A stretch of 64,000 nucleotides of DNA from Crambe crambe. Its lineage: Eukaryota; Porifera; Demospongiae; Poecilosclerida; Crambeidae. The notes beneath the pieces are model-generated. The model saw only the letters and a list, made by a program, of their open reading frames with translations. It was not told the origin of the DNA and did not search any database. Positions 1-26,098 of this stretch are shown here, piece after piece. Numbering within the stretch: position 1 is the first letter of the stretch; each line of letters begins with the position of its first letter. A program made the position numbers and the translations under genes. The stretch is taken from NCBI GenBank assembly GCA_963924555.1, contig OZ004591.1, positions 6,696,001 to 6,760,000 on the forward strand, written 5' to 3'.

Positions 1-3000
1 GTCCCTGGTAAGTGTAGTCAATCAATTTAGCTACTCCATAAGGTACCTAGTGTTCTCCTCCCCTTTATAATCTCTCCCTTTCTTTGATATATGTAGGGGT
101 GTGTACTCAGAATTCCCTGAGGTTGGTTGGAGGGACAACACCATTTGAAGGTCGAGTGGAGGTTTGTGATGATGGAGTTTGGGGAACAGTATGTGATGAC
201 TCTTGGGACGCACAAGATGCTATGGTGGTTTGCAGACAGCTTGGCTATTCGATCCAAGGTTTGTATACATTGCACCAGTGAAGTTCATATTATGAACAGA
301 GTTTGTGGGTTGATTTCAGGTGCTGAAGCTATTCAACAAGCATTTTTTGGTGAAGGAACTGGAAGAATTATCTTTGATGAAGTGGGATGCACTGGGTCTG
401 AAAGCATACTAGCATCTTGTCCACTTTCAAGAACACACAATTGTGTCCACTCAGAAGATGCTGGAGTGAGATGTCTCCCTAGTAAGTGTAGTCAATCAAT
501 TTAGCTACTCAATAAGCTACCTAGACTGTAGTCCATGCTCCTCCCTTGGTGACCCCTTCTTTTCTTTGATAGGGTGTACTCAGAATTCCCTGAGGTTGGT
601 TGGAGGGACAACACCATTTGAAGGTCGAGTGGAGGTTTGTGATAATGGAGTTTGGGGAACAGTATGTGATGATGATTGGGACGCACAAGATGCTATGGTG
701 GTTTGCAGACAGCTTGGCTATTCGATCCAAGGTTTGTATACATTGCACCAGTGAAGTTCATATTATGGACAGAGTTTGTGGATTGATTTCAGGTGCTGAA
801 GCTATTCAACAAGCATTTTTTGGTCAAGGAACTGGAAGGATTATCTTTGATGATGTGGGATGCACTGGGTCTGAAAGCACATTAGCATCTTGTCCACTTT
901 CAAGAACACACAATTGTGCCCACTCAGAAGATGCTGGAGTGAGATGTCAACCAGGTACGATCAATTCACCATACTCATTGCTATACCTCATGCAGTATCT
1001 TATGTAGATGTGAGTGATTTTTGTTGTTACTCAGGAACTTCTACATCTGGTCCTACATCTTTCTCTTCATCTGCTCCTAGTACATCTGGTCCTACATCTT
1101 TCACTTCATCTGCCCCTAGTACATCTGGTCCTACATCTTTCACTTCATCTGCTCCTAGTACATCTGGTCCTACATCTTTCTCTTCATCCGTCCCTACATC
1201 TCTTGGTACGCCTGCTTCTACTACATCTGTCCCTGGTAAGTGTTGTCAATCAGGTTAGCCACTCCATAAAGTACCTAGTGTTCATGCTCCTCCCCTTTGT
1301 GATCTCTCCCGGTCCCTTTCTTCAATACACATAGGGGTGTGTACTCAGAATTCCCTGAGGTTAGTTGGAGGGACAACACCATTTGAAGGTCGAGTGGAGG
1401 TTTGTGATAATGGAGTTTGGGGAACAGTATGTGATGATGATTGGGACGCACAAGATGCTATGGTGGTTTGCAGACAGCTTGGCTATTCGATCCAAGGTTT
1501 GTATACATTGCACCAGTGAAGTTCATATTATGGACAGAGTTCATGGGTTGATTTCAGGTGCTGAAGCTATTCAACGAGCATTTTTTGGTCAAGGAACTGG
1601 AAGGATTATCTTTGATGATGTGAGATGCACTGGGTCTGAAAGCATACTAGCATCTTGTCCACTTTCAAGAACACACAATTGTGGCCATTCAGAAGATGCT
1701 GGAGTGAGATGTCAAGGTGTGTCCAGTTACTGTGACATTATAGTTATGTAGCTTTTTCATCACTGCTCTTCTCCCTCTCTCAGGTACTACATCATTCCCA
1801 ACATCATTCACTTCATCTGTCCCTACATCTCTTGGTACACCTGCTTCTACTACATCTGTCCCTGGTAAGTGTTGTCAATCAGGTTAGCCACTCCATAAAG
1901 TACCTAGTGTTCATGCTCCTCCCCTTTGTGATCTCTCCCGGTCCCTTTCTTCAATACACATAGGGGTGTGTACTCAGAATTCCCTGAGGTTAGTTGGAGG
2001 GACAACACCATTTGAAGGTCGAGTGGAGGTTTGTGATAATGGAGTTTGGGGAACAGTATGTGATGATGATTGGGACGCACAAGATGCTATGGTGGTTTGC
2101 AGACAGCTTGGCTATTCGATCCAAGGTTTGTATACATTGCACCAGTGAAGTTCATATTATGGACAGAGTTCATGGGTTGATTTCAGGTGCTGAAGCTATT
2201 CAACGAGCATTTTTTGGTCAAGGAACTGGAAGGATTATCTTTGATGATGTGAGATGCACTGGGTCTGAAAGCATACTAGCATCTTGTCCACTTTCAAGAA
2301 CACACAATTGTGGCCATTCAGAAGATGCTGGAGTGAGATGTCAAGGTGTGTCCAGTTACTGTGACATTATAGTTATGTAGCTTTTTCATCACTGCTCTTC
2401 TCCTCTCTCAGGTACTACATCATTCCCAACATCATTCACTTCATCTGTCCCTACATCTCTTGGTACACCTGCTTCTACTACATCTGTCCCTGGTAAGTGT
2501 TGTCAATCAAATTAGCTACTCCATAAGGTACCGTAGTGTTCATGCTCCTCTCCTTTGTGATCCCTCCTGGTCCCTTTCTTTGATACACGTAGGGGTGTGT
2601 TCTCAGAATTCCCTGAGGCTGGTTGGAGGGACAACACCATTTGAAGGTCGAGTGGAGGTTTGTGTGGGAGGAACATGGGGAACAGTGTGTGATGATGATT
2701 GGGATACATCAGATGCATCTGTAGTCTGCAGACAGCTTGGCTTCCCATCAGGAGGTTCGCATATAAAATGGATACATCCCAGATTAGTGAAAATTGCTTC
2801 ATTTCTTTAGCTGCTGAAGCGTTTGGTAATGCGATGTTCGGAGAAGGAAGTGGTGAGATTGTCTTCGATGATGTTATGTGTGCAGGAAATGAAATAGCGC
2901 TGACAACTTGTCCACTGTCTAGGATTCATAACTGTGTCCACTCAGAAGATGCTGGAGTGAGATGTCAAGGTGTGTCCAGTTACTGTGACATTATAGTTAT

Positions 3001-26098: not shown

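Follow-up and report, generated by a model that had tools for sequence, protein, structure and literature searches.

A probable single adhesion GPCR gene joining 26 SRCR and two NIDO domains to a seven-transmembrane core in the sponge Crambe crambe

Here we describe a very large gene of the sponge Crambe crambe that, from its sequence, is best read as one adhesion G-protein-coupled receptor (GPCR) of 83 exons and 5,582 residues, in which an array of SRCR modules interleaved with two NIDO domains leads into an Ig-bearing stalk, a GPS and a seven-transmembrane (7TM) domain; we put the probability of this reading at roughly 0.8. The gene lies at the start of a 64,000-nucleotide (nt) stretch of contig OZ004591.1 in assembly GCA_963924555.1 (G000:C14:6696001-6760000 in our coordinates, hereafter the window), part of a genome of 143 Mb in 119 contigs, one with very short introns, sizeable SRCR and NIDO families and numerous adhesion GPCRs, and was modelled across the window's edge after 50 kb of upstream sequence had been added. 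The exon chain, curated by hand and checked against reading frame and splice sites, spans 28.7 kb of the + strand from an ATG at window position -2650 (L013:7350) to a TGA at 26096-26098; it is GT-AG throughout, with a median intron of 81 nt, and carries 16,749 nt of coding sequence with a single stop, at its end. For the part inside the window, an earlier note made from the letters of the window alone had given 77 exons and 5,185 residues, and our curated model returns the same numbers, coordinates and strand. That note followed the SRCR array through to the 7TM domain, as we do, but the gene it described was cut by the window: its first six exons and the greater part of exon 7 lie upstream, and add, in this order, a signal-peptide-like exon, the first two SRCR modules, Sushi, and linkers rich in Ser and Thr. 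The first exon, at -2650, encodes MRLSFLATTRGGPFFALLLVGLSSITITQSQ, a signal-peptide-like, hydrophobic N-terminus.

The N-terminal part of the predicted protein thus runs from the signal peptide through two SRCR modules, Sushi, a Ser/Thr linker, five SRCR, NIDO, two SRCR and a second NIDO to a block of 17 SRCR; the C-terminal part continues with two Ig domains, a glycosylated stalk with three further Ig domains, EGF, Ig, a SEA-like segment, an HRM-like segment, the GAIN/GPS region, the 7TM domain and a tail. On the spliced translation, Pfam finds 26 SRCR stretches (PF00530) in the pieces that hold the 26 modules (2, 4, 5, 2, 2, 5 and 6 by piece), 24 of them inside the window, and the NIDO, Sushi, Ig, EGF, GPS and 7tm_2 matches also exceed the Pfam cut-offs. 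The 24 SRCR, two NIDO, Ig, GPS and 7TM domains named for the window by the earlier note all recur in our curated model. The parts of the gene in the window are laid out below.

1-26098, + strand: in-window part of the gene, 77 of the 83 exons, residues 398-5582, no internal stop in the curated chain
97-2969, + strand: SRCR 3-7 with the Ser/Thr/Pro-rich linker exons between them; five Pfam SRCR stretches in five modules
3234-3942, + strand: NIDO 1 (PF06119), in two exons; Pfam 1e-40 over profile positions 3-185 of 186, and 136.9 bits in the genome search
4095-5271, + strand: SRCR 8-9; two Pfam SRCR stretches in two modules
6089-6800, + strand: NIDO 2, in two exons, shown by block comparison to duplicate the NIDO 1 block; 139.4 bits in the genome search
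6968-9180, + strand: SRCR 10-11; two Pfam SRCR stretches in two modules
10447-15833, + strand: SRCR 12-22, among them tandem units of some 1.5 kb that are nearly identical; 5 + 6 Pfam SRCR stretches in 5 + 6 modules
15989-18390, + strand: SRCR 23-26, the final four; four Pfam SRCR stretches in four modules
18391-18447, + strand: phase-1 intron of 57 nt between the SRCR part and the Ig-GPCR part; donor GTGAGT, acceptor TTTAG
18448-19232, + strand: Ig-like exons 1-2; Pfam ig 1.5e-10, two stretches
19301-20254, + strand: coding minisatellite stalk, then Ig-like domain 3; from Tandem Repeats Finder (TRF) and translation, with Pfam V-set over this part
20762-21580, + strand: Ig-like exons 4-5; Pfam Ig_3 and I-set
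21643-21780, + strand: EGF domain; Pfam EGF 6.3e-06
22018-22278, + strand: Ig-like exon 6; Pfam Ig_2 as the best stretch
22340-22793, + strand: about 100 residues that look SEA-like by eye only; nothing in Pfam at E up to 0.1
22918-23153, + strand: HRM-like cysteine-rich segment, recognized from paralogous segments and itself without a Pfam HRM match
23289-24085, + strand: presumed GAIN region, so named from its position alone; Pfam GAIN gives no match at E up to 0.1
24223-24357, + strand: GPS; Pfam GPS 1.3e-10, and 47.7 bits in the genome search
24522-26098, + strand: 7TM domain and cytoplasmic tail; Pfam 7tm_2 2.4e-17, ENIYVTT at 25979-25999, TGA at 26096-26098
26391-26396, + strand: first AATAAA past the stop, a plausible poly(A) signal

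At the signalling end, the 7tm_2 profile (PF00002) is matched over positions 2-245 of 250 at 63.4 bits against a cut-off of 20.6, and on our reading of hydrophobicity the hydrophobic segments of this region fall into seven clusters. The GPS, which sits before TM1, is matched over its full profile (1-45 of 45) at 42 bits against a cut-off of 22.5. Its sequence, CVFWD...GGWSREGV...RCESTHLS and then TFTILL, keeps the H-X-S/T triad (HLS) and a tethered-agonist-like TFTILL, and has V and S in place of Cys2 and Cys4 (EGV instead of GC, CES instead of CxC), two cysteines that we take normally to pair with each other. Among 20 comparison GPS exons, chosen by hand on different contigs out of the 86 that the genome search found, Cys2 is kept in 20 of 20 (as Gly-Cys in 19), the CxC pair in 20 of 20, and HLT or HLS in 18. 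Searched against the PDB, the part from the GPS through TM7 best matches ADGRG2 (4.4e-25), followed by ADGRG6 (3.5e-22), both of which share with this gene a GPS and a class B2 7TM domain alignable from GPS to TM7; unlike this gene, ADGRG2 keeps both Gly-Cys and CxC in the aligned GPS. To our knowledge, the vertebrate ADGRG2 and ADGRG6 carry no SRCR, NIDO or Sushi modules.

The labels given to the region before the GPS are of a different kind. Aligned with six of seven fetched paralogous segments (L078 was left out), the HRM-like segment is 33-48% identical to them, and five of the seven aligned members, this gene's own not among them, match Pfam HRM at E up to 1 (best 4.2e-06); searching the PDB with a profile of the segment gave no match at E up to 1. 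The SEA-like segment and the GAIN region, neither of which matched Pfam at E up to 0.1, are named by eye or by position.

Whether the SRCR and Ig-GPCR parts belong to one gene is the central question, and the rival answer is that two genes adjoin here: one, ending near 18 kb, for an SRCR-NIDO protein that is secreted or membrane-bound, and one for an Ig-EGF-HRM adhesion GPCR that begins at about 18.4 kb or within the Ig part. The earlier note had argued for one gene from the joining of all exons in frame. The joining holds, but the argument is weak, because introns are near-universally in phase 1 (68 of the 70 before the last Ig exon), and modules bounded by such introns keep the frame wherever they come from, as those of two adjoining genes would. 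The junction itself speaks more clearly against two genes, since the closing SRCR exon and Ig1 are only 57 nt apart, an intron that leaves little room for the end of one gene and the start of another. A scan for possible first exons, in which an ATG and a hydrophobic core are followed by a phase-1 donor, gave just two candidates in the 2.8 kb ahead of Ig1 (16417 and 16428), both weak, and in the 8.1 kb upstream the -2650 exon was its sole + strand match. No AATAAA lies on the + strand between 15,859 and 26,391, a span that includes the SRCR-Ig junction. Similarly, an automatic exon finder leaves the SRCR and Ig parts in one gene when the gene cost is -20, -10, -5 or 0, and separates them only at +5, where everything shatters. 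A break between 18.4 and 22 kb, with a separate start for the Ig-GPCR part, was the outcome the earlier note named as fatal to its claim; with the short intron, the weak starts, the absence of AATAAA and the unsplit finder models at costs up to 0, it has little in its favour. Two genes would nonetheless fit the many SRCR and NIDO matches that lie in this genome away from any GPCR, the ATTAAA hexamers in the intron 17,927-18,225 and at 18,409, the weak start candidates, and an Ig part that has no close paralogue to confirm the link. On balance we regard two genes as unlikely.

Several further observations count against a single intact receptor gene and temper our confidence in it. Frame continuity, with almost all introns in phase 1, fails to exclude two genes. 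The start scan is not very specific, returning 7 (upstream), 0, 0 and 6 matches on the reverse strand of four stretches, and it gives a further candidate inside the Ig-GPS part, before Ig5, at 21229. Two internal starts, at 4664 and 9587, have cores more hydrophobic (3.29 and 3.23) than that of the 5' exon (2.56). The exon finder divides the gene at 7.5 kb at gene cost 0, and at gene costs up to 0 it never picks the -2650 ATG, starting instead at -2169 or with an open end. ATTAAA variants at 17,989-18,099 and 18,409 make shorter or truncated isoforms possible. Among 1,620 giant-protein candidates none scored at E up to 0.001, a weak negative, since the query was unspliced and contained intron sequence, and the two metagenomic homologues found cover TM4 to the tail rather than the whole architecture. 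On the spliced translation, Pfam showed no GAIN domain at E up to 0.1. Finally, according to a 2026 paper (PMC13062082), every GAIN domain of the human adhesion GPCRs has the Gly-Cys motif's bridge, which the GPS described here does without.

The internal starts and the ATTAAA variants also bear on a third account, in which one locus yields alternative isoforms: the full-length receptor together with secreted SRCR forms, made by intronic polyadenylation, or with receptors that start at internal ATGs. At window positions 4664-4796 and 9587-9695, an internal ATG opens a strongly hydrophobic stretch that runs into an SRCR or linker exon. This contiguity, the hydrophobicity beyond that of the 5' exon, and the ATTAAA repeats at 17,989-18,099 count in favour of isoforms. 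Against this, both stretches overlap polypyrimidine tracts before acceptors, and we infer that the two starts are chance readings of these tracts as Phe/Leu. If real, they would yield shorter receptors that still carry SRCR and 7TM parts. We treat such isoforms as a tentative possibility, one that is compatible with a single receptor gene.

In weighing the single gene, we used the automatic exon finder as a guide and not as an independent test, because it was self-trained on a curated set drawn partly from this same gene and proved blind to others. On 114 kb it predicted one + strand gene ending with the TGA at 26098 and no minus-strand gene; it missed the upstream tubulin gene that Pfam detects, scored 0 on a GPCR locus of contig C15, and on contig C13 recovered only EGF exons. 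A start at -2169, favoured by automatic models, was rejected, as the -2650 exon gives both a hydrophobic N-terminus and a phase-1 junction to SRCR 1. Likewise discarded was a gene end at 25,237, which came from versions of the finder trained on unfiltered open reading frames; these produced large genes on both strands in wrong frames, and a second run dropped the 7TM domain. The coding reality of the exons is supported independently of the finder by the Pfam matches and by the repeat copies, whose ratio of nonsynonymous to synonymous substitution (dN/dS) is 0.24-0.63 in 10 overlapping comparisons, three of them with dS above 1.2 and none accompanied by a significance test; constrained coding sequence is expected to give such values.

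The same repeat copies raise the question of whether the repeat structure is in part a product of assembly, with SRCR units or the NIDO block mis-assembled and the true SRCR or NIDO count different. Over exon positions, the 1.5-kb SRCR units share 98.8-99.7% identity, near enough for the SRCR count to vary or to be mis-assembled, and the stalk holds a coding minisatellite (19291-19899) of 8.5 copies of a 72-bp unit, rich in Thr, Pro and Asn and dense in NxT sites, whose length may differ among individuals. Conversely, the two NIDO blocks agree at 97.0% of exon positions and at 92.5% of those intron positions that align, and they differ in length by more than 1 kb; these differences mark them as real copies. 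We think an assembly product quite unlikely, and it would alter the count only, not the architecture.

Relatives of the C-terminal part of this single gene are distant. From HRM to 7TM, only distant paralogues were found in this genome, at 27-47% identity by exon among the non-self matches listed, and the Ig1-4 part is strong to itself only, with four self matches and three weak others. Of the metagenomic proteins, P0001 and P0002 match the last exon, P0001 at 38% identity from TM4 to the tail. By eye, both share with this receptor the tail motif ENIYVTT (25979-25999), possibly a tyrosine-based signal, although a BLASTP comparison of the tail with P0001 leaves the two ENIYVTT motifs unpaired. 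Among the 86 GPS sites of the genome, this gene's alone (judged by eye) has an SRCR match listed on its own strand no more than 30 kb upstream, the SRCR list being a lower bound for which 150 of 2,833 candidates were scored.

Two other loci appear to be further candidate NIDO-bearing adhesion GPCRs. At C15:6909504-6920009 (within C15:6908501-6921000), a NIDO domain, six Calx-beta stretches, a GPS and a 7tm_2 match lie on one strand within about 10.5 kb; on the minus strand at C13:3514851-3489785, NIDO is accompanied by VWD, a MUC4-type C8, a long EGF_CA array, Ig, an HRM-like segment and a GPS (all within C13:3497001-3515000), with a 7TM match further along at C13:3489785. In both candidates, as in the gene described here, NIDO precedes GPS and 7TM on a single strand; unlike it, they carry Calx-beta or VWD/EGF arrays in place of SRCR. 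Elsewhere, G000:C20:4537000-4870000 holds two duplicate blocks in which GPS/7TM sites have SRCR matches about 46 kb upstream on the same strand, with NIDO matches further off.

Around the gene itself, Pfam matches place a tubulin gene on the + strand upstream of L013:5930, and, still further upstream, they include acyl-CoA dehydrogenase C-terminal domains. The window also holds, on its minus strand at 59531-61540, an open frame of 670 residues with a TNP-like RNase H match (PF21787, 5e-22) that looks like a P-element-type transposase.

An SRCR-bearing adhesion GPCR as such is not new. Krishnan et al. 2014 (PMC4302439) already put this core claim in print, reporting that the Amphimedon queenslandica adhesion GPCRs Aq712029 and Aq715659 carry multiple SRCR repeats, an arrangement then unique to those authors' knowledge. 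Both resemble the present gene model in combining an adhesion-family 7TM domain with multiple SRCR modules in the ectodomain, a likeness that we draw from their description and not from sequence; in contrast to this gene, NIDO is absent from the main text of that paper as available, and its legend to the architecture figure, which covers selected receptors, lists neither NIDO nor Sushi. Similarly, the multi-SRCR scavenger receptors of Halichondria panicea combine SRCR with Sushi and other modules, while the portion of the source available describes no 7TM part for them; a legend there on Halichondria immune receptors names NIDO with the owning protein unspecified (PMC8242945). Amphimedon has 296 SRCR genes according to the accessible part of another report (PMC10855680). 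Our literature search on NIDO or nidogen with adhesion GPCR found no NIDO-bearing adhesion GPCR in print, PMC8242945 being the one paper that names NIDO, SRCR, 7TM and GPS together, and the first 300,000 of the 412,533 characters of a 2026 adhesion-GPCR review mention neither SRCR nor nidogen nor sponge. The novelty that the earlier note saw in a long SRCR array with NIDO domains thus narrows: the SRCR part was known, and what appears to be new, judged on the gene model, is the presence of NIDO domains in an SRCR-bearing adhesion GPCR together with a gene readable from signal peptide to stop.

The domain order suggests that this receptor would couple scavenger-type recognition to G-protein signalling. 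We envisage that it stands at the cell surface, where its scavenger, NIDO and Ig modules may bind microbial, matrix or cell ligands, and that the GPS is cut or strained, such that force on the very long ectodomain, or a ligand bound to it, could free the tethered agonist; the agonist would in turn switch on the 7TM core and, with it, a G protein. The lost second disulfide of the GPS might ease release of the ectodomain or, alternatively, make cleavage less efficient. More speculatively, and with low confidence, the protein could be a pattern-recognition adhesion GPCR whose 5,200-residue ectodomain of scavenger, NIDO and Ig modules is pulled off by microbe binding or the drag of flow across a GPS lacking one of its two locking disulfides, firing the tethered agonist, with ENIYVTT as a second output.

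As far as we know, the route by which the large SRCR families of sponges signal is mostly unknown, and a complete model that joins a 26-SRCR array to a 7TM core would supply a concrete and testable one, leading from recognition of the scavenger type to a G protein. A GPS that has lost two cysteines yet keeps its cleavage site would amount to a natural experiment on how the GAIN domain is held in one piece. The NIDO-bearing candidates, taken with this gene, suggest that the adhesion GPCRs of sponges used a wider set of matrix modules than those of vertebrates.

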